A DNA stretch of 34,118 nucleotides. Source: Paracoccaceae bacterium (GTDB lineage: Bacteria > Pseudomonadota > Alphaproteobacteria > Rhodobacterales > Rhodobacteraceae). The position numbers and the translations under genes were made by a program. Where the stretch lies: the NCBI GenBank assembly GCA_028749255.1, contig JAQTYE010000012.1, positions 1 to 34,118 on the forward strand, in the 5' to 3' direction. Position 1 is the first letter of the stretch. Each line of letters opens with the position of its first letter. A model generated the notes under the pieces. It had not been told where the DNA came from. It ran no database searches and was given only the letters and a program-made list of their open reading frames with translations. Of this stretch, positions 1 to 10,243 are shown piece by piece.

Positions 1-1
1 A

Positions 2-115
2 CTTCCGGGGCGTTTGTACGAAGTGTTTGACGAATACAAACAAGACGAGTGGACGCGCTTCCTGCGCGAGGTCACCAATTGGGACGTGGAGCAATACCTG
101 CACTGCGTCCCGTAA
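2..115 (+). CDS. C-terminal fragment of a glutamine synthetase-family protein (type III / GlnT or gamma-glutamyl-amine synthetase-like); 5' end outside window
   Basis: Frame 2 reads LPGRLYEVFDEYKQDEWTRFLREVTNWDVEQYLHCVP*, resembling the C-terminus of non-GSI glutamine synthetase family members. Supported by the downstream amine-catabolism context. Confidence 0.55.
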   Translation, partial: LPGRLYEVFDEYKQDEWTRFLREVTNWDVEQYLHCVP

Positions 116-152
116 TCCGGGCCTTGCCCGAAACCCCGAGGAGAACCACCGT

Positions 153-1343
153 ATGATCACACGCAAGACCGACCGCACCGCGATGACCGACCTGCTGAGC
201 GCGGACGGCCGGATCGTGCAGATCTGTACGGCGCAGGAAACCGCGCTGGGGCTGGCCCCCGGCGCGGCGACGGGGGCGCCGTGGTCGGTGATCTACCCGC
301 TGGAGGCACGCGAGCGGCTGCAGGCGGTTCTGGCGGGGCCGGGGCCGGGGCCGCATGTCATGGCGCTTGATCTGCGCCGCACCGAGGGGCCGCTGATGGC
401 GGTCAGTGCGGTGATCGAACGGATCGACCATCCCGATCACGGCACCTGTCTGCATCTGACAAAATGGCCTGCGGGCAGCACGCTGGATGAACTGGCGCGG
501 CTGGCCGAGGAAAATGAAATCCTGACGTCGATCCTGGCCACCTCGGATGATGCGGGTTGGTGCATGGAATGGGCCGATCCGGTCGATCTGTCCGCGCCCG
601 AGCAGGAAATCATCCGCCAGGTCTTTGAAAACAGCCCGCGCTGGCGGTTTTGCAACGGCGCGATGGCGCGGCTTTATCGCACCCCCGAGGGCGAGGATTT
701 CAACGCCCGCCCGGTGCATGAAACCTTCCCGCGTACCGAAGAAAACGAAACCTTCGTGCGCCGTCTGGTGCGCGCCAGCTTTGACATCAACGCCCAGCCG
801 TCGCGCGATCTGCGCTATGACGGGGTCTATATCGAAGTTGAAAACGATGTGCGCGGCCATATCCGGGGCAACCGGCTGTATCGGATGTGGGGCACGGTGC
901 GCGACGTGTCCAAACACGCCCGCCGGGCCGCGGTGCTGCGCGACGAGATCGACACGCTGGCCGCGATCCTGGCGGCCTTGCCCGACGCGGTGCTGGTGGT
1001 GGATCGGGCGGGCCATGTGCTGCGTGCCAATCTGGCGGCCGAGGAGTTGCTGGGGCTGACCGCCGAAACCCTGCCGGCACGCGAACTGGGCGATCTGATC
1101 GAGATGCAATTGCCGCTGGCGCAGCTGTTCACGGCGGTCGATGCGCAGATGCCGGGCCATCCGAACCGGATATTCGCTGCCGGTGTGCGCCGCCCCGATG
1201 CAGCCTTGCGCGCCGAGATGACGGCGCGGCTGCTGCGCCTGCGCGAGACCGATTATCTGGTGCTGAGCCTGCGGGCGCGGCTGGGCATGGCCGGTGCGGG
1301 CGGCGGGGCGCCGCGCGTGACCCGCCTGCGGGCCGAGGGTTGA
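153..1343 (+). CDS. PAS domain-containing protein (no kinase or output domain recognised)
   Basis: The ORF listed from 27 very likely starts at MITRKTDRTAMTDLL (153), with GAGGAG upstream. C-terminal PAS-like segment LAAILAALPDAVLVVDRAGHVLRANLAAEELLGLTAETL. High-GC3 coding frame. Confidence 0.75.
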   Translation: MITRKTDRTAMTDLLSADGRIVQICTAQETALGLAPGAATGAPWSVIYPLEARERLQAVLAGPGPGPHVMALDLRRTEGPLMAVSAVIERIDHPDHGTCLHLTKWPAGSTLDELARLAEENEILTSILATSDDAGWCMEWADPVDLSAPEQEIIRQVFENSPRWRFCNGAMARLYRTPEGEDFNARPVHETFPRTEENETFVRRLVRASFDINAQPSRDLRYDGVYIEVENDVRGHIRGNRLYRMWGTVRDVSKHARRAAVLRDEIDTLAAILAALPDAVLVVDRAGHVLRANLAAEELLGLTAETLPARELGDLIEMQLPLAQLFTAVDAQMPGHPNRIFAAGVRRPDAALRAEMTARLLRLRETDYLVLSLRARLGMAGAGGGAPRVTRLRAEG

Positions 1344-1361
1344 GCGATGGGGGGGCAGGAC

Positions 1362-2761
1362 ATGACCCGACGCTCTGACATTGGTGCCGCGGGCGCGGGC
1401 CTTGATGCGGCCCTGAACGCATTGCCCGACGGGCTGATCGTGCTGGATCAGGCGGGGGTCGTGCGGTTTTGCAACCGCGAGGCGGGCACGATTGCGGGCC
1501 TCGCACCGGCGGCGGTGATTGGCGAGAGATTTGCGCAGATTCAGGACTGCTCGGCATTGAACTGGGTCTCGGTGCTGGAACTGATCGAGGCCGGGCGCAG
1601 TGGCAATCTGATGCTGCGCGGCGAGGCGGTGGGGGCGATCTTTGTGATCGTGCGCCGAATGACCGAACCGGGGGGGGCGCCTGCACCGGCTATGCGATCA
1701 CCCTGCGCGATCTGGCGGTGTTCGACCACGCCCGCCGTCAGGCCAGTGGCCAGCGCGAGGCGGTGGCGTTTTCGGGCACCGCCGAGCGTCGCCTGCGCCC
1801 CGACTTCGCCCGCCAGCGCCATATCTCGCCCTGGCTTGACAAGATGATGTCGCGCGGGGAACGGGCGTTGTTGCAGGGCGCGCGGGTCATCATCACCGGC
1901 GAATCCGGCGTCGGCAAGACCGAGATCGCGCGCCATCTGCATTCCTTCGTGGCCAATGGCAGTGACCCGTTCATCGCGGTCAACTGCGCCGCGATCCCCG
2001 AAAGCCTGTTTGAATCCGAACTCTTCGGCTATGAAAAGGGCGCTTTCACCGGCGCGCTGACCGAAGGCAAGCGCGGGCTGATCGAGGCGGCCGAGGGCGG
2101 CACGCTGTTTCTGGACGAGATCGGGGAAATCCCGCTGCCGCTGCAGGCCAAACTGCTGAGCTTTCTGGAAGATGGCATGATCCTGCGGATCGGCGGCACG
2201 CGCCCGCGCCGGGTCAATGTGCGGGTGATTTCGGCCACCAACCGCGATCTGCTGGCAATGGCCGAGGATCGCCGCTTTCGGCTCGACCTTTATTATCGGC
2301 TGGCGGTGGTCAACATGCCGATGCGCCCGCTGCGCGAGGTGCCCGAGCTGCTGGATCACCTGATCGAACGCTTCCTGACCGCGATCAATCAGCGCCGCTC
2401 GGTGCCGCTGGCGCTGTCGGACGATCTGCATGACCGGCTGCGCGCCTATCACTACCCCGGCAATATCCGCGAACTGTGGAACCTGATGCAGCAAATCTCG
2501 GTGCTGGGCGAGGATGAGGATGAATTGCCGCGCCGCCTGATGGCGACCACGCCCCGGCGTGACACGGGCCCTGCCAGCGGCCCCGACGCAGACACCGACC
2601 CCACCCCGGACCCGGGCCAGAGCCTGCGCGAGGTGGTGGCCGATTTTGAATTGCGGATCATCGAAGATGCGATCCGTATCCACGGCAGCAAGCGCAAAGC
2701 CGCTGCCGCACTGGGTGTCGATATCGGCACCATTTCCCGAAAAACCCGAAAAGAGCCCTGA
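1362..2761 (+). CDS. sigma-54-dependent transcriptional activator (PAS - AAA+ - Fis-type HTH), disrupted by an apparent frameshift in a G8 run at 1670-1677
   Basis: PAS-like N-terminus in frame of 1347/1362; AAA+ in the frame of ORF 1469: [11 protein letters not shown] (Walker A), GAFTGA loop, [15 protein letters not shown]-terminal Fis-like [22 protein letters not shown]. The reading frame changes at the poly-G tract. Confidence 0.85.
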
Positions 2762-2794
2762 AGCGGCCGAATGACCCAACAGATGGAGCGACAC

Positions 2795-3838
2795 ATGACA
2801 CCGACCAAACTGATCACCGCAGGCGTTCTGCTTGCCCTTTCGACCAGCACCGCGCTGGCCGGCAATACGATCAACGTGCTGACCTGGGAGGGCTATTCCG
2901 ATCCGTCCTTCATCAGCACATTCGAGGAGCAGTCGGGCTGCAAGGTCAATGCGACCTATGTCGGTTCGAACGACGACTTCGCGCCGAAACTGATGGCGGG
3001 CGGCGGGGTTTACGACCTGATCACGCCGTCGATCGACACCACCAAGCTGATGATCGACCTGGATTTCGTCGAGCCGCTGGACACCGCGAAAATCGACAAC
3101 TGGGACAAGATCTATCCGAAATTCCTGGGCCTCGACGGGATCCAGAAAGACGGCGCCTATTACGGCATGCCCTATGTCTGGGGTGCGATCGCCTTCATGT
3201 ATCTGGACAGCGCGTTTTCCACGCCGCCGACCTCGATTGCCGATCTGTGGAACCCGGATCTGAAGGGCAAGATCTCGCTGTGGGACGACAAAAGCTCGAT
3301 CTATGTCGCGGCGCGCAAGAATGGCGACATGAACATCTATGATCTGAGCGACGAACAGATCGCCAAGGCGCAGGCCGCGCTGTTGGAACAAAAACCGCTG
3401 GTGCGGAAATACTGGGCCACGGCGGGTGAACTGGTCGATCTGTACAAGGCCGGTGAAGTCGTGATCTCGAACACCTGGGCGGGGTATCAGTCGGGGCTGC
3501 TGGCGGCCGAAGGTGTGAAGGTCACCGAATTCATCCCGACCGAGGGCGCCGAAGGCTGGATGGATAGCTGGATGGTCGTCAAAGGCACGCCCAACAAGGA
3601 ATGCGCCTATAAATTCCTGAACATGCAGCTGTCGGAACTGGGGCAGTGCGGGGTCGCCAATATCAACGGTTATTCCGTGACCAACCCCGCCGCCGCGAAG
3701 GCCTGCATGAGCCCCGAGCAATACGCCGCCCTGCATCAGGAAGATCCGGCCTATCTGGACAGCCTGATGGTCTGGCAGCCGCTGGGCGACCGGTTCGAGG
3801 CCTACACCAACGCGTGGAACGCCGTGAAGGCGCAATAA
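2795..3838 (+). CDS. Spermidine/putrescine-type ABC transporter substrate-binding protein (PotD/PotF family)
   Basis: Signal peptide MTPTKLITAGVLLALSTSTALA followed by NTINVLTWEGYSDPSFISTFEEQSGCKV. First gene of an SBP-ATPase-permease-permease operon. Start at 2795 preferred over 2771 (GGAG upstream). Confidence 0.85.
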   Translation: MTPTKLITAGVLLALSTSTALAGNTINVLTWEGYSDPSFISTFEEQSGCKVNATYVGSNDDFAPKLMAGGGVYDLITPSIDTTKLMIDLDFVEPLDTAKIDNWDKIYPKFLGLDGIQKDGAYYGMPYVWGAIAFMYLDSAFSTPPTSIADLWNPDLKGKISLWDDKSSIYVAARKNGDMNIYDLSDEQIAKAQAALLEQKPLVRKYWATAGELVDLYKAGEVVISNTWAGYQSGLLAAEGVKVTEFIPTEGAEGWMDSWMVVKGTPNKECAYKFLNMQLSELGQCGVANINGYSVTNPAAAKACMSPEQYAALHQEDPAYLDSLMVWQPLGDRFEAYTNAWNAVKAQ

Positions 3839-3954
3839 CTGCCGCGATCTGCCGGGCCCGGGGTGTGTAGCGCTCCGGGTCGGGCCACCAATCAATAAGC
3901 GCGCGGGGGGTCGGGGAGGAGCTCCCGCGGCGCAAACTTCAGGGAAAAGGCGCA

Positions 3955-5052
3955 ATGGCCGCAATCATCGAATTGGAGAATATCTCCAAGCATTACAGCC
4001 CGACGATCATCGGCGTGGACAAGGTCTCGCTGGCGGTCGAAGACGGCGAATTCGTCACGCTGCTCGGCCCTTCCGGCTGCGGGAAATCGACGCTTTTGCG
4101 GATGATCGGGGGCTTTGAGGAGCCGACCGCCGGCACCATCCGTCTGGCGGACAAGGACGTGACCTGGGACCCGCCCTATAAACGCGAAGTCAACATGGTG
4201 TTTCAGGACTATGCGCTGTTTCCGCATATGACCGTGGGGCAGAACGTGGCCTATGGGTTGAAGACCATGAAGGTGGCCAAATCCGAGATTGCCACCCATG
4301 TGCGCGACGCGCTGACGCTGGTGGGGCTGTATGACAAGGTCGATCAGCGCCCGCAGCAATTGTCGGGCGGGCAGCGCCAGCGGATCGCGCTGGCCCGGGC
4401 CATCGTGCGCAAGCCCAAGGTTCTGCTGCTGGACGAACCGCTGTCGGCGCTGGATGCAAAACTGCGCGAACAGATGCAGCTGGAACTGAAACACCTGCAT
4501 GAAAAGGTTGGCATCACCTTCATCATGGTCACCCACGATCAGGGCGAGGCGCTGGTCATGTCCGACCGCGTGGTGGTGATGGAGAAGGGCCGGATCGCCC
4601 AGCAAGGCAAGCCGCAGGATCTGTATGATCACCCGGCCTCGCCCTATGTCGCCAATTTCATCGGCACCACGAATTTCCTGCCCGGACAGATGGCCGCAAC
4701 CGGCGCGGGCCTGGTCAGCATCGAAATCGGGGCAGGCACGATTTCGGCGCTGCCCGATGTTGCCCTGCCCAAGGGCGGTGTGGTCACCGTGGGGTTCCGC
4801 CCCGAAAAAGCGCGTCTTCTGGCCGAGGGCGAGACGGCGGAAAACATCCTGGAAGGCAAGATCGCCGAGGTGATCTATTACGGGCTCGGGCTGCGGGTCG
4901 CGGTGGAACTGGCCAATGGCGAGCGGGTCTCGGTCGATAGCCTGCTGCCCGACCGTCTGGCGCGCTCTGCGGTGCCGGTCGTCGGTGCGCCTGCGCGCGT
5001 CGCGGTCGAGCCGCATAACGTCTTTGTCTTTGAGGGGAGCGTGGCGCCATGA
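3955..5052 (+). CDS. ABC transporter ATP-binding protein, PotA-like
   Basis: Walker A GPSGCGKST, signature LSGGQRQRIALARA, Walker B VLLLDEPLSALD, TOBE-type C-terminus. Confidence 0.92.
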   Translation: MAAIIELENISKHYSPTIIGVDKVSLAVEDGEFVTLLGPSGCGKSTLLRMIGGFEEPTAGTIRLADKDVTWDPPYKREVNMVFQDYALFPHMTVGQNVAYGLKTMKVAKSEIATHVRDALTLVGLYDKVDQRPQQLSGGQRQRIALARAIVRKPKVLLLDEPLSALDAKLREQMQLELKHLHEKVGITFIMVTHDQGEALVMSDRVVVMEKGRIAQQGKPQDLYDHPASPYVANFIGTTNFLPGQMAATGAGLVSIEIGAGTISALPDVALPKGGVVTVGFRPEKARLLAEGETAENILEGKIAEVIYYGLGLRVAVELANGERVSVDSLLPDRLARSAVPVVGAPARVAVEPHNVFVFEGSVAP

Positions 5053-5915
5053 CCCTGATCCGTCGCAACCTTGCGGGCGCGCTGATCCTGGGGATTCCGT
5101 TTCTGTGGATCGCCCTGTTCATGCTGCTGCCCTATGGCATCATCGTCACCTATTCGTTCTGGATCAAAACCTATCCAACCTTCAAACCGGCGTTCCAGTT
5201 CGGCAATTACCTGACGCTGTTCACCGACCCGCAATATTTGCAGGTGATGCTGCGCACGTTGAAAATCGCGCTGCTGGTGTCGCTGTGCTCGTTTCTGCTG
5301 GCCTATCCCTTCGCGTTCTATCTGGTGTTTCGCTGCAAATCAGCGGCGTTGCGGACCTGGCTTTACATGGCGGTGATCGCGCCGCTGTGGGTCAGCTATC
5401 TGCTGCGCGCCTATGTCTGGAAAACCATTCTGGGTACCGAAGGCATCCTGAATTCATTCCTGATGTCGGTGGGGATCATCGACCAGCCGTCGGATATCTT
5501 CCTGTATAACCAGTTCGCGATGGTGGTCACGCTGACCTATATCTTCATCCCGTTCATGGTGATGCCGATCTATACCGCGCTGGAAAAGATCCCGTTGAAC
5601 CTGACCGAGGCCTCGGCCGATCTGGGGATGGGGCCGTGGCGCAGTTTCTGGCATGTCACGTTGCCCCTGTCGCTGCCCGGTGTGGCAGCGGGGTTCACGC
5701 TGACGTTTTGTCTGTCGTTTGGTGATTTCGTCGCGCCGTTCCTGGTGGGCGGGCCGGATGGCAACCTGATGGCCAATGTGATTGCCACGCAATTTGGTGC
5801 GGCGCTGAACTGGCCGTTGGGCTCGGCTCTGGCGATCGTGATGCTGGTGGTGGTGCTGTCGATCGTGTCGATGTCCGACCGGTTGGAGCGCAAAGGCGCG
5901 GCGGGAGGGTTCTGA
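5049..5915 (+). CDS. ABC transporter permease, PotB-like
   Basis: Multi-TM protein with inner-membrane-component motif EASADLGMGPWRSFWHVTLPLSLPGV. ATGA overlap with the ATPase gene. Confidence 0.88.
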   Translation: MTLIRRNLAGALILGIPFLWIALFMLLPYGIIVTYSFWIKTYPTFKPAFQFGNYLTLFTDPQYLQVMLRTLKIALLVSLCSFLLAYPFAFYLVFRCKSAALRTWLYMAVIAPLWVSYLLRAYVWKTILGTEGILNSFLMSVGIIDQPSDIFLYNQFAMVVTLTYIFIPFMVMPIYTALEKIPLNLTEASADLGMGPWRSFWHVTLPLSLPGVAAGFTLTFCLSFGDFVAPFLVGGPDGNLMANVIATQFGAALNWPLGSALAIVMLVVVLSIVSMSDRLERKGAAGGF

Positions 5916-5916
5916 T

Positions 5917-6723
5917 ATGGCAAACCGTAATCCGAACCTGTTGTCGCGCTATGGGGCGGACACCGCCTTCATGACCTTTGTCGCGGCGCTGATGGCGTTC
6001 CTGTATGTGCCGATCTGGGTGCTGATCGCATTTTCGTTCAACAGTTCGCGTTCGTTGACCTGGCCTTTGTCGGGCTTCACCTTCGAATGGTATGAAAAAC
6101 TGTGGAACAATGGCGATCTGCTGACGGCCATTGGCAACAGCTTTTATGTGGCCTCGGGGGCAACCGTGCTGACCCTGATTGTGGGCGTGCCCGCGGCGCT
6201 GGCGCTGCACAAGTTCCATTTTCCGGGCAAGGTGATCTTTCGGCGGATGATCTTGTTGCCGATCACCCTGCCGGGGATCGTGACGGGTATCTCGATGCTC
6301 AACATGTTCCGGCTCTTCGGGTTCCAACTGAGCCTGGAAACGGTCATTCTGGGCCATGCCACGGCGCTGTTGGGCGTGGTGGTGACACAGGTTTTTGCCC
6401 GGCTGCAACGCCTGCCAAAATCGCTGGAAGAGGCCGCCTTCGATCTGGGCGCGGGACCGTGGCGCAGTTTCATCGACATCACGCTGCCCAATATCCGTTC
6501 GGCGATCATCGGCGCGGGGCTGCTGTCCTTCGTGCTGAGCTTTGACGAAATCCCGGTGACCTTCTTCCTGACCGGACGCGACAACACGCTGCCGATGTAC
6601 ATCTATTCGACGCTGCGCCGTGGCGTGACCCCGGAAATCAACGCCGTGGGCTCGATCATCGTTTTGATGTCGCTGGTGCTGATCATCGTTTCCGTGATCG
6701 CCACCCGTGACCGTAACAAATAA
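5917..6723 (+). CDS. ABC transporter permease, PotC-like
   Basis: Multi-TM protein with motif EAAFDLGAGPWRSFIDITLPNIRSAII. Adjacent to the PotB-like gene. Confidence 0.88.
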   Translation: MANRNPNLLSRYGADTAFMTFVAALMAFLYVPIWVLIAFSFNSSRSLTWPLSGFTFEWYEKLWNNGDLLTAIGNSFYVASGATVLTLIVGVPAALALHKFHFPGKVIFRRMILLPITLPGIVTGISMLNMFRLFGFQLSLETVILGHATALLGVVVTQVFARLQRLPKSLEEAAFDLGAGPWRSFIDITLPNIRSAIIGAGLLSFVLSFDEIPVTFFLTGRDNTLPMYIYSTLRRGVTPEINAVGSIIVLMSLVLIIVSVIATRDRNK

Positions 6724-6737
6724 CCCAGAGGTATGAC

Positions 6738-8234
6738 ATGACACTGACCCACAAAGACTGGACTGCCCGCGCCGCGGCCCTGCGCCCCGAAACCCGGATG
6801 TTCATTGACGGCAAGTTCGTCGATGCCACCTCGGGGGCGACCTTCCAGACGATCAACCCGGCCAATGGCGAGGTTGTCGCCGAAGTCGCCCGGGGATCGT
6901 CCGAAGACGTTGACCGCGCGGTGGCCGCCGCCCGCAAGGCGTTCAAATCGGGCGTCTGGTCGCGGATGGCACCGACCGACCGGATGGCGGTGATGCGCCG
7001 CTTCGCCGATCTGATCGAGGCGCATGCCGAAGATATCGCGCTGCTGGACACGCTCGACATGGGCAAGCCGATCTCGGACATGTTCAACATCGACATTCCC
7101 GGATCGCTGATGACGATCCGGTTCTTCGCCGAAACCATCGACAAGATGGAGGGTGTGGTGACCGCGACCAATGCGGACGCGCTGCACTACATCCTGCGTC
7201 AGCCGCTGGGCGTGTGCGGGATCGTGGTGCCGTGGAATTATCCGCTGATGATGGCGGCGTGGAAACTGGCGCCGGCGCTGTCGTGCGGCAACTCGGTCGT
7301 GTTGAAACCGGCGGAACAATCGCCGTTGTCGGCGCTGCTGCTGGCGAAGCTGTTTGCCGAGGCGGGCGGACCGGATGGCGTGTTCAACGTGGTCACCGGC
7401 TTTGGTGAAGACACCGGCAAGCCGCTGGCGCTGCATATGGATGTGGACAAGATCGGTTTCACCGGCTCGGGCGAAGTCGGCAAGCTGATGATGATCTATG
7501 CCGGGCAATCGAACATGAAGCGCGTGACCACCGAATGCGGCGGCAAGTCGCCGCAAATCGTGCTGGCCGATTGCGAGGATCTGGCGAAGGCCGCGACCTT
7601 TGGCGTCGCCGGGATCTTTGGCAACCAGGGCGAGGTTTGCTCGGCCGGGTCGCGCATTCTGGTCGAACGCGCGATCTATGACGATTACATCGCCGCCTTC
7701 ACCGAGGCCGCGAAGGACATGCATGTGCCCGGCGACCCGCTGGACCCGGCCACCACGATGGGGCCGCTGGTCACGCCGGAACAACAGGCGCGCGTGCTGT
7801 CCTATATCGAGGCGGGCAAGCGCGAAGGTGCCACGCTGGCCTTCGGGGGCGGCGTGCCCGCGGCCTTCAACACCGGCTGTTATGTCGAACCCACCCTGTT
7901 CACCGGGGTCAACAACAAGATGAAAATCGCGCAGGAAGAAATCTTTGGCCCTGTCGCCTCGATCATTCCGGTGGATAACCTGGATCACGCGATCGAGGTG
8001 GCCAATGACACGATCTATGGGCTGGCCTCGGCGATCTGGACTTCGAATGTGAAAAACGCGCACCGGTTCGCGCGCGACATCGAGGCGGGCATCGTCTGGG
8101 TCAACGCCTATGAGGCGGGGGATGCGACCACGCCTTGGGGCGGCTACAAACAGTCGGGCAATGGCCGCGACAAATGCCTTGAGGCGCTGACGCAATACAC
8201 CCAGACCAAATCGGTCTGGATCGAACTGGGCTAA
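6738..8234 (+). CDS. Aldehyde dehydrogenase (PuuC-like, gamma-glutamyl-gamma-aminobutyraldehyde dehydrogenase type)
   Basis: PWNYPLMMAAWKLAPAL, FTGSGEVGK, TECGGKSP and catalytic GNQGEVCSAGSR motifs. 498 aa. Confidence 0.9.
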   Translation: MTLTHKDWTARAAALRPETRMFIDGKFVDATSGATFQTINPANGEVVAEVARGSSEDVDRAVAAARKAFKSGVWSRMAPTDRMAVMRRFADLIEAHAEDIALLDTLDMGKPISDMFNIDIPGSLMTIRFFAETIDKMEGVVTATNADALHYILRQPLGVCGIVVPWNYPLMMAAWKLAPALSCGNSVVLKPAEQSPLSALLLAKLFAEAGGPDGVFNVVTGFGEDTGKPLALHMDVDKIGFTGSGEVGKLMMIYAGQSNMKRVTTECGGKSPQIVLADCEDLAKAATFGVAGIFGNQGEVCSAGSRILVERAIYDDYIAAFTEAAKDMHVPGDPLDPATTMGPLVTPEQQARVLSYIEAGKREGATLAFGGGVPAAFNTGCYVEPTLFTGVNNKMKIAQEEIFGPVASIIPVDNLDHAIEVANDTIYGLASAIWTSNVKNAHRFARDIEAGIVWVNAYEAGDATTPWGGYKQSGNGRDKCLEALTQYTQTKSVWIELG

Positions 8235-8241
8235 GGGGCAG

Positions 8242-8270
8242 GGCGGGGGCCGCCGTGGCGTGCCCCCGCC
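8242..8270 (+). other. Intercistronic RNA hairpin (possible attenuator or mRNA stabiliser)
   Basis: GGCGGGGGC-CGCC-GT-GGCG-T-GCCCCCGCC: perfect 9-bp outer stem and 4-bp inner stem, between the aldehyde dehydrogenase and amidotransferase genes. No T-tract. Confidence 0.6.
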
Positions 8271-8279
8271 GATATCACC

Positions 8280-8999
8280 ATGAAAATTTGCATTCTCGAA
8301 GCCGACCGCCCCGCCGAGGCCTTTCAACCCGCGCACGGCACTTATGCCGGCATGTTCGAACGCTGGCTGGGCGCGGCCCTGCCAGAGGCCACCTTCACCC
8401 GGATTTTCGTGGCGGGCGGCGAGGCCCTTCCCGAGGATCCGACCGTTTTCGACGGGTATCTGGTTACCGGGGCGCGCGCCGGGGTTTACGAAGACCACGA
8501 CTGGATCGCGCCGCTGGGCGCCTTTTTGCGGGACTGTGCGGCGGCGCGCGTGCCGCTGACCGGGGTCTGTTTTGGCCATCAGATCATGGCGCAGGCCTTC
8601 GGTGGCGAGGTCCGCAAATCCGACGCGGGCTGGGTCATCGGGCGGCATGCGCATGATCTGACCGATGACGGGGCCGCGTTGTTTGGCGCGGGGCCGCTGG
8701 CGGCGCTGTCGTTTCATCAAGATCAGGTGATCACGCCCCCCGCGGGCGCCCGGCGCGTGCTGTCAAGCCCGGCCTCGCCCAATGGCGGGCTGTGCTATGA
8801 CTTTCCGGCGCTGTCGGTGCAGTTCCATCCTGAATTCGCGCCCGCCTATATCCGTGATCTGCTGGTCGCGGCCTCTGGCATCCGGGTGCCGCAGGATCTG
8901 GCCCAAACCGCGCTCGACAGCCTGTCGGCGCCGCTGGACGGGGACCGTGTCGCGAAAGGCTTTGCGAATTTTCTGCGGGCCCATACACTGGCGCGGTGA
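8280..8999 (+). CDS. Type 1 glutamine amidotransferase (class I GATase, GMP synthase-like)
   Basis: Nucleophile elbow TGVCFGHQIMAQAFGG and catalytic His/Glu motif SVQFHPEF. Confidence 0.85.
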   Translation: MKICILEADRPAEAFQPAHGTYAGMFERWLGAALPEATFTRIFVAGGEALPEDPTVFDGYLVTGARAGVYEDHDWIAPLGAFLRDCAAARVPLTGVCFGHQIMAQAFGGEVRKSDAGWVIGRHAHDLTDDGAALFGAGPLAALSFHQDQVITPPAGARRVLSSPASPNGGLCYDFPALSVQFHPEFAPAYIRDLLVAASGIRVPQDLAQTALDSLSAPLDGDRVAKGFANFLRAHTLAR

Positions 9000-10243
9000 T
9001 GAAACTCGCCCATGAAACCGCGCTGCGCCAGACCACCGGGCTCAAGCAAACGCTTGGGCTCGAGGCGCGCCGGGCGATTGGCTTTCTAAGTCTGTCGAAC
9101 ACCGATCTGACCGAACTGCTGCGCGAGGCGGCATCGGACAATCCGGTGCTGCGGTTGCGGTTGCCGCCCGTGGTGTCCAACCCGGTCGAGGCCGAGGCGC
9201 AGGGCCCGTCGCTGAGCGCGCATGTGCTGGCGCAGTTGCCCCGGCTGGTGCCGCGCGCGCCCGATCAGCGCGTGGCGCTGGCGCTGGCCGAGGCACTGGA
9301 CGGCGCGGGGTTTGTCACACAGCCGCTGGACCAGATCGCGGCGCGGCTGGGCTGCACGGTGGCGCGGGTCGCGCAGGTGCTGCGCGCGCTGCAACAGATC
9401 GAGCCGCGCGGGTTGTTCGCGCGCTCTCTCGCCGAATGTCTGGCGTTGCAACTGGCCGAACGCGGGCCGATTGACCCCGAGATGCAGCGTGTTCTGGATC
9501 ACCTGCCCAGCCTGGCCGGGGGCGGGGTTGCGGCGCTTGCGGTGCGCACGGGGGTAAGTGATGCGCGCCTGGCGATGCATCTGGCGCAGCTGCGCGACCT
9601 GGATCCGCGCCCGGCGGCCGCCTTTGCGCAGGATCTGGCCGCGACCCGGGTGCCCGACCTGATTTTCAGCTGCGAAGCGGGCATCTGGCAGGCGTTGCTG
9701 AACCCCGAAACCCTGCCGCAGGCCTGGCTGGACCCTGCGCTGTTGGGAACGATCCCACGCGGGTCGGCACTCAGCCATAACCGCCAGCAGGCCCGCCATC
9801 TGCTGCGCGCCCTCGATCAGCGCAACCGGGCGCTTCTGGCGCTGGGGGCGGTGTTGGCGCGGGCGCAGGCCGGGTTTCTGGCACAAGGGGCGGCGGTGCT
9901 TGCGCCCCTGACAATGCGGCAGGTCGCGCAGGAGATCGGCATGCACGAAAGCTCGGTCGGGCGGATGGTGAATTCCGGCTCGGCCCGCACGCCCGCAGGC
10001 ATCGTGCCACTGCGTGCGTTTTTCAGCCGGCCTGCCTCGCGCTCCGAGGAGGGCACCGCGACCAGTGCCGCCGCTGTCATTGCGCGGCTGCAGGCATTGA
10101 TCGCGGCGGAAACCACAGCCCTGTCGGATGCGGCGCTATGCGATGTGCTTGGGGCGGCGGGGGTGCAGATTTCGCGTCGCGTGGTGGCAAAATACCGCGC
10201 GCAGGCGGGTATTCCGCCCGCGCATTTGCGGCGCGGGCGTTAG
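8999..10243 (+). CDS. rpoN: RNA polymerase sigma-54 factor (RpoN), divergent paralogue-like
   Basis: Region I-like GLKQTLGLEARRAIGFLSLSNTDLTELLREAASDNPVL; core-binding region with LAPLTMRQVAQEIGMHESSVGRMVNS; RpoN box variant ISRRVVAKYRAQAGIPPAHLRR. TGATG overlap with the GATase stop. The listed ORF begins at GTG 8996; ATG is at 8999. Confidence 0.92.
   Translation: MKLAHETALRQTTGLKQTLGLEARRAIGFLSLSNTDLTELLREAASDNPVLRLRLPPVVSNPVEAEAQGPSLSAHVLAQLPRLVPRAPDQRVALALAEALDGAGFVTQPLDQIAARLGCTVARVAQVLRALQQIEPRGLFARSLAECLALQLAERGPIDPEMQRVLDHLPSLAGGGVAALAVRTGVSDARLAMHLAQLRDLDPRPAAAFAQDLAATRVPDLIFSCEAGIWQALLNPETLPQAWLDPALLGTIPRGSALSHNRQQARHLLRALDQRNRALLALGAVLARAQAGFLAQGAAVLAPLTMRQVAQEIGMHESSVGRMVNSGSARTPAGIVPLRAFFSRPASRSEEGTATSAAAVIARLQALIAAETTALSDAALCDVLGAAGVQISRRVVAKYRAQAGIPPAHLRRGR

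Follow-up and report, generated by a model that had tools for sequence, protein, structure and literature searches.

Genes and layout of the operon

The window, that is the whole stretch of 34,118 nucleotides analysed here, begins inside a 14-gene operon with the order P450, ferredoxin, ferredoxin reductase, GS-like 1, GS-like 2, PAS1, activator, PotDABC, aldehyde dehydrogenase (ALDH), class I glutamine amidotransferase (GATase) and rpoN. The assembly of the window genome consists of 243 contigs, and the 5' half of the operon is found on contig C33, which overlaps the start of the window by 14 bp. An earlier note, made from the window alone, had assigned the window genes to the operon correctly but missed its start, since the P450, ferredoxin, reductase and GS-like 1 genes and most of GS-like 2 are located on C33. 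The features are as follows (coordinates of the window, strand).

Contig C33 (L205), -: P450, 3Fe-4S/4Fe-4S-type ferredoxin, ferredoxin reductase and GS-like 1
2..112, +: GS-like ligase 2, last 36 codons (Pfam); remainder on C33
153..1343, +: PAS1, soluble, with PAS domain(s), probable sensor partner (Pfam PAS; present in all relatives)
1362..1677, +: sigma-54 activator (bEBP), PAS part, frame 1
1670..1677, +: G8 run, frame break of the activator (frames of the relatives intact)
1682..2761, +: activator AAA+ domain with GAFTGA loop and Fis-type HTH, second frame
2795..3838, +: PotD-like periplasmic binding protein (Pfam)
3955..5052, +: PotA-like ATPase (Pfam)
5049..5915, +: PotB-like permease (Pfam)
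5917..6723, +: PotC-like permease (Pfam)
6738..8234, +: aldehyde dehydrogenase, PuuC-like (Pfam; PuuC is the top-scoring model, without reaching the equivalog cut-off)
8280..8999, +: class I glutamine amidotransferase / gamma-glutamyl hydrolase-like (Pfam)
8996..10243, +: operon RpoN (sigma-54), last gene (Pfam, tree, RpoN box)

The domain assignments of the earlier note were borne out, all of them scoring above the Pfam cut-offs: the GS C-terminus, the PAS protein, the GAFTGA AAA+/Fis-type activator, the series of substrate-binding protein, ATPase and two permeases, the ALDH, the class I GATase and a full RpoN (AID/CBD/DBD). For PAS1 an AF2 model suggests three PAS-like units with modest confidence (pLDDT 66). 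The reported overlap of the GATase stop with the RpoN start was also confirmed; it comprises 4 bp (8996-8999) and is the same in all eight genomes measured, namely the window genome and seven relatives.

The activator, previously read as one ORF at 1362-2761, is in fact divided between two frames, with the PAS domain in frame 1362 and the AAA+ and HTH domains in frame 1469. The switch falls in a stretch of eight consecutive G (1670-1677), which is the longest of its kind in the window. In G007, a close relative, this stretch carries an additional base and the activator frame is open over 470 aa; a single intact frame is absent in the window genome and present in the relatives. This frameshift may be an artefact or a mutation. 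If it were real, the module of the window strain would be decaying, and the operon could be silent, run constitutively by an AAA+ protein that lacks PAS and starts internally, or subject to phase variation through slippage at the G run. The break lies precisely at the longest G run, and a comparison of 13 genes with G007 shows only the activator to be broken, as decay would predict. However, this is also where homopolymer miscalls occur, the AAA+ and HTH domains are 93% identical to their G007 counterpart and the remaining operon genes are intact. We consider decay rather unlikely, and it would touch one genome, not the system.

Conservation across genomes

Nine genomes carry the operon: the window genome, six others of its genus (G001, G006, G007, G010, G012 and G016) and two from other genera of the family (G327 and G356). 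Gene order is kept in all eight relatives, contiguously in six and split over contigs in two. As the same order recurs in at least six relatives, the grouping exceeds chance. In every copy rpoN is the final gene, while the 3' neighbours vary between genomes. Therefore, rpoN belongs to the operon unit. The distribution of the operon is patchy and its insertion sites differ between genomes. Among nine proteins compared, RpoN evolves fastest, with a mean pairwise identity of 60.7% in five relatives versus 65-90% for the others. A search of the genome contigs with RpoN as the only query returned one close relative (UBA6796) and four distant matches.

The operon RpoN

The rpoN of the operon is neither the only one in the window genome, which has two, nor a member of the housekeeping clade, in agreement with the specialised paralogue proposed earlier. 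In a tree of 116 RpoNs all nine operon RpoNs formed one clade (9/9, SH-aLRT 100, stem 0.59). The housekeeping RpoNs of Alphaproteobacteria, those linked to nif and the four of G067 all fell outside it. The tree ruled out a housekeeping, nif or flagellar rpoN as its identity.

Regions I-III are intact, and the domain scores of 26.7 (PF00309, AID), 125 (PF04963) and 141 bits (PF04552) all exceed their cut-offs. With 267.9 bits against a cut-off of 277.35 the protein falls below the NCBIfam equivalog TIGR02395 and is a divergent member. The RpoN box reads SRRVVAKYRA in place of ARRTVAKYRE, as noted before. Region I, also described there as looking degenerate, is not lost; its AID score of 26.7 bits lies above the cut-off of 23.8. 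The SRRV of the box is constant in the aligned members of the operon clade.

Predicted promoter and enhancer

The earlier note had proposed looking for a -24/-12 element upstream of the glutamine-synthetase gene. Such an element was found upstream of the operon, but before the P450 gene. In all nine genomes a predicted sigma-54 element, TGGAAY-N4-CTTGCA (TGGAAYNNNNCTTGCA), precedes the start codon of the P450 gene by 57-72 bp, and the sequence around it has diverged; the canonical -24 is TGGCAC. An exact motif search of the nine genomes, which may overlook degenerate targets, gave 11 matches, all within the operon, compared with eight for a reversed control pattern. Of these, nine coincide with the promoter; the other two, in G010 and G016, fall within the 3' end of GS-like 2. 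The latter TGGAAC, located before PAS1, may represent a second promoter; it is kept as a possible one only, since the same bases encode the conserved VERYLH.

Other RpoN-linked clusters have other promoter types, namely TGGCACGnnnCTTGCT for nif, TGGCAYGnnnCCTGCA for a peptide-transporter cluster and TGG(C/A)AAGAAACCTGC(T/A) for the carboxylase-type cluster. P450/GS clusters with a canonical RpoN box, found in G474 (housekeeping RpoN) and on a plasmid of Paracoccus sp. TOH, have TGGCAC, which ties the -24 shift to the divergent RpoNs by correlation only. The match of TGGAAC to the RpoN box is likewise correlative: RpoNs of a second clade, whose boxes read SRRT or SRRA, deviate at the -24 too.

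Further upstream, dyads of the form YGMTGC-N6-GCAKCR occur at a distance of 123-157 bp from the -24 in each of the eight genomes whose available sequence reaches far enough, often in pairs 19 bp apart. The best dyad score was equalled by between 0 and 44 shuffles in 1000, depending on the genome; these figures are optimistic because the pattern was built from the tested sequences. Dyads with 19-20 bp spacing also occur upstream of five homologous operons outside the pattern-building set.

Pairing of RpoNs and activators

The pairing of this rpoN with the local activator, suggested in the earlier note, is supported by counts and by linkage in six genomes and appears to extend beyond the operon. 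When GAFTGA loops were counted by alignment, the ratio of GAFTGA activators to intact RpoNs was 2:2 in G000, G006, G007, G010 and G327 and 1:1 in G356. Every GAFTGA activator of the six genomes shares a cluster with an RpoN, and in their remaining activator-like proteins the motif is either missing or altered (GAFPGA-like). The other pair of the window genome is found in a carboxylase-type cluster, and G007 has in addition a third rpoN, a fragment at a contig end. In G356 the RpoN and activator of the operon are the only ones in the genome, and the exact motif search found one promoter, with TGGAAC as its -24. Across 109 RpoN loci an activator was located at most 9 kb from RpoN in 35, versus about 2.7 expected by chance. 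The operon combines what defines a dedicated pair: a separate RpoN clade, a linked activator and a promoter type of its own.

Pathway chemistry

Use of gamma-glutamylated amines, as proposed before, is in line with the ligase and GATase genes but is too narrow, because the operon also comprises a class-I P450 system (Pfam p450, Fer4_15, and Pyr_redox_2 with Reductase_C). The heme-ligand motif FxxGxxxCxG of the P450 is present as FGFGGGAHHCLG (L142); among PDB entries this P450 is matched best by 3p3l, another and distant P450. GS-like 2 resembles glutamate-methylamine ligase (GoaS/GMAS-like). It has FKGNL where the aligned GS has FDGSS, and a lysine at the position of Asp50, the residue which binds ammonium in GlnA. 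The GATase matches general amidotransferase models only. GS-like 2, the GATase and the PuuC-like ALDH together point to amine gamma-glutamylation. The operon probably breaks down an amine, and its gene content points to gamma-glutamylation combined with the class-I P450, in an order of reactions that we infer.

A PotD-like binding protein, a PuuC-like ALDH, GS-like ligases and a class I GATase would also be found in an ordinary putrescine operon of the E. coli Puu type, next to which an unrelated rpoN could have come to lie. Yet no PuuB oxidase was found in the operon, which has the P450-ferredoxin-reductase set instead, and rpoN is syntenic in every copy, its start overlapping the GATase stop wherever measured. 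Moreover, all Puu equivalog cut-offs were missed (PuuC 593 versus 850 bits; GGputSyn 138-193 versus 650 bits). A plain Puu operon was rejected on these cut-offs, and we regard this explanation as highly improbable. Common to both systems are a gamma-glutamyl ligase, a PuuC-like ALDH, a class I GATase and polyamine-type uptake. The operon differs by its P450 system, two ligases, ABC transporter and predicted sigma-54 control; E. coli Puu uses PuuB, PuuP and PuuR at the corresponding points.

P450-ferredoxin-reductase sets near a GS gene have been described as the pip/mor/bioI type in Mycobacterium and Gulosibacter (PMC9477822). The P450 is likened to the pip/mor type by gene set only, and the oxygenase family and the substrate may differ. 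Glutamylation-first pathways are reported for aniline (AtdA), isopropylamine (Ipu) and 1-naphthylamine (Npa) (PMC11335346). An oxygenase and a GS-like ligase are shared between the operon and those pathways, and a GATase-like enzyme with the aniline type. The consulted portions of both sources describe no unit of transporter, PAS protein, bEBP and rpoN for the pip/mor/bioI or glutamylation-first systems (PMC9477822, PMC11335346). The operon may indicate an uncharacterised P450/gamma-glutamylation amine pathway.

A proposed private sigma-54 regulon

Judged from sequence, the operon may best be read as a self-contained, private sigma-54 regulon for the uptake and oxidation of an amine, to which we assign a probability of roughly 0.78. 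It encodes both a sigma-54 factor and the sole activator likely to act with it, and the exact promoter motif occurs essentially nowhere else in the nine genomes, so that the operon looks like a private copy of a switch which in other bacteria serves many genes in common. A cationic amine would enter via PotDABC, and PAS1 together with the PAS domain of the activator would sense the substrate, a derivative or the redox state. The AAA+ activator would bind the tandem dyads, about 125-155 bp upstream of the promoter, and remodel RNA polymerase carrying the operon RpoN at TGGAAY-N4-CTTGCA before the P450 gene. The resulting transcript would yield the P450 system, two gamma-glutamyl-amine ligases, the ALDH and a gamma-glutamyl hydrolase. 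It would also renew the activator and RpoN, which amounts to a double positive feedback, and the first RpoN and activator molecules would require a weak second promoter or read-through. We infer that the operon's own RpoN, rather than another, reads the P450 promoter, and the positive feedback, the signal and the substrate are assigned in the same manner.

Alternatively, rpoN could be a hitch-hiking paralogue that serves several promoters or activators of the cell, or either RpoN could read the operon. Its patchy distribution at different sites would suit a passenger, and in other bacteria two such factors of the same cell may overlap, as described for RpoN1 and RpoN2 (PMC7970052). However, six genomes have just as many GAFTGA activators as RpoNs, and each of these lies in a cluster of its own, the exact promoter motif is confined to the operon, and G356 has no second RpoN. 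Hence, we find a hitch-hiking rpoN improbable.

Sigma-54 is normally one shared factor, and specificity comes from many activators. In the genomes considered here this textbook logic might be inverted, in that each paralogue is encoded in a cluster and has one activator and one promoter type, so that orthogonal channels arise; we lean slightly towards this generalisation. In the operon itself, sigma factor, activator, enhancer and promoter form a single cassette together with the enzymes under their predicted control, which would be a natural example of an orthogonal and transferable transcription channel. The matched sets TGGCAC/ARRT and TGGAAC/SRRV offer material for identifying the residues which set -24 recognition.

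Dedicated pairs are established in Cereibacter (Rhodobacter) sphaeroides, where RpoN1 acts with NifA, RpoN2 with FleQ-FleT and RpoN3 with AprX (PMC11999139). Both cases share several RpoN paralogues, each with its own activator, as well as regulon-specific promoters and the same broad bacterial group. In contrast, the operon RpoN forms a clade to which none of the four RpoNs in the C. sphaeroides-like G067 belongs, is encoded within its predicted target operon and would serve a one-promoter regulon with a shifted -24. No description of this operon was found in the literature searched. Within that literature an rpoN closing the catabolic operon which it predictedly serves would be new, as would the shifted -24 element and the apparent one-to-one matching, within a genome, of every sigma-54 factor to a sigma-54-competent activator, with none left over on either side.

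Related operons without rpoN

All ten activators with a linked rpoN (the nine and that of Paracoccus TOH) have GAFTGA, whereas six of seven homologous activators without a linked rpoN lack the loop, an association that corresponds to one or two evolutionary events on the tree, not 17. The remaining one, G474, retains GSFTGA without an operon rpoN and has one housekeeping rpoN. In the loop-less operons no strong sigma-54 site was found near PAS1. The dyads are kept in the five rpoN-less sister operons checked, and in several loop-less operons a -35-like TTGAC precedes them. The loop-less sister operons fit a switch to sigma-70 control.

Such control has been described for the NtrC proteins of R. 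capsulatus and Caulobacter, bEBPs without GAFTGA that act with sigma-70 (PMC10274813). The sister-operon activators share the missing loop with these NtrCs. Unlike them, the loop-less forms described here are known from sequence and belong to homologous operons, with dyads beside a -35-like sequence. A comparison of GAFTGA-bearing and loop-less activators that share these dyads may show how an activator can shift between sigma-54 and sigma-70 control.

Variant activators and additional rpoN modules

In the homologous PAS-activator-Pot-ALDH operons of loci L125, L127, L128, L129, L130 and L303 the activator has lost GAFTGA, the sigma-54 contact loop. Upstream of the operons of L125 and L127-L130 we found the same tandem dyads (YGMTGC-N6-GCAKCR), several of them directly 3' of a -35-like TTGAC. 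These GAFTGA-less activators are possibly repressors or sigma-70 activators. Activators with a threonine-to-proline exchange in this loop (GAFPGA, GSFPGA or GAVPGA; L005, L006, L007, L311, L316, L320, L321, L324 and L325) also recur in the genomes compared and are probably not sigma-54-competent.

The second rpoN of the window genome, G000, is likewise local to its gene cluster (L065 on contig C195, L207 on C162; also L053, L055 and L126). A cobW-thiolase-rpoN set lies divergent from a GAF/AAA+ activator and hydantoinase-type genes that are acetone/acetophenone carboxylase-like, and promoters in these clusters read TGGAAAGAAACCTGCA or TGGCAAGAAACCTGCT. In a third type of module a peptide/glutathione-type ABC transporter adjoins rpoN (L048, L050, L133, L138, L139, L249), together with a short activator and a TGGCAYGnnnCCTGCA promoter 5' of the binding-protein gene; in L048 the module also includes genes for an acyltransferase (AAT) and an AtuA-family protein. 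Further rpoN genes are plasmid-borne or fragmentary:

L302, Paracoccus sp. TOH plasmid p2, 14460-18359: consecutive PAS, activator and rpoN genes
L305, Paracoccus aminophilus pAMI4, 8968-10230: rpoN adjoining a soluble di-iron monooxygenase cluster
L208, G007:C16:22-381: third rpoN of the nearest relative, a fragment at the contig end with the DNA-binding domain only

On p2, an unannotated P450 gene, two GS-like genes and an ALDH gene lie nearby, the promoters read TGGCACGGGANTTGCA and the RpoN box is canonical.

Two details concern the studied operon itself. One lies in the activator gene:

Window 1670-1677: G8 run, coinciding exactly with the activator frame break

This run could be an artefact, a mutation or a slippage site. 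The other is that the promoter motif has a second exact match, TGGAACGCTACTTGCA, in the same-genus genomes G010 and G016 (L052/L142); this copy lies within coding sequence, in the 3' end of GS-like 2, shortly 5' of PAS1.
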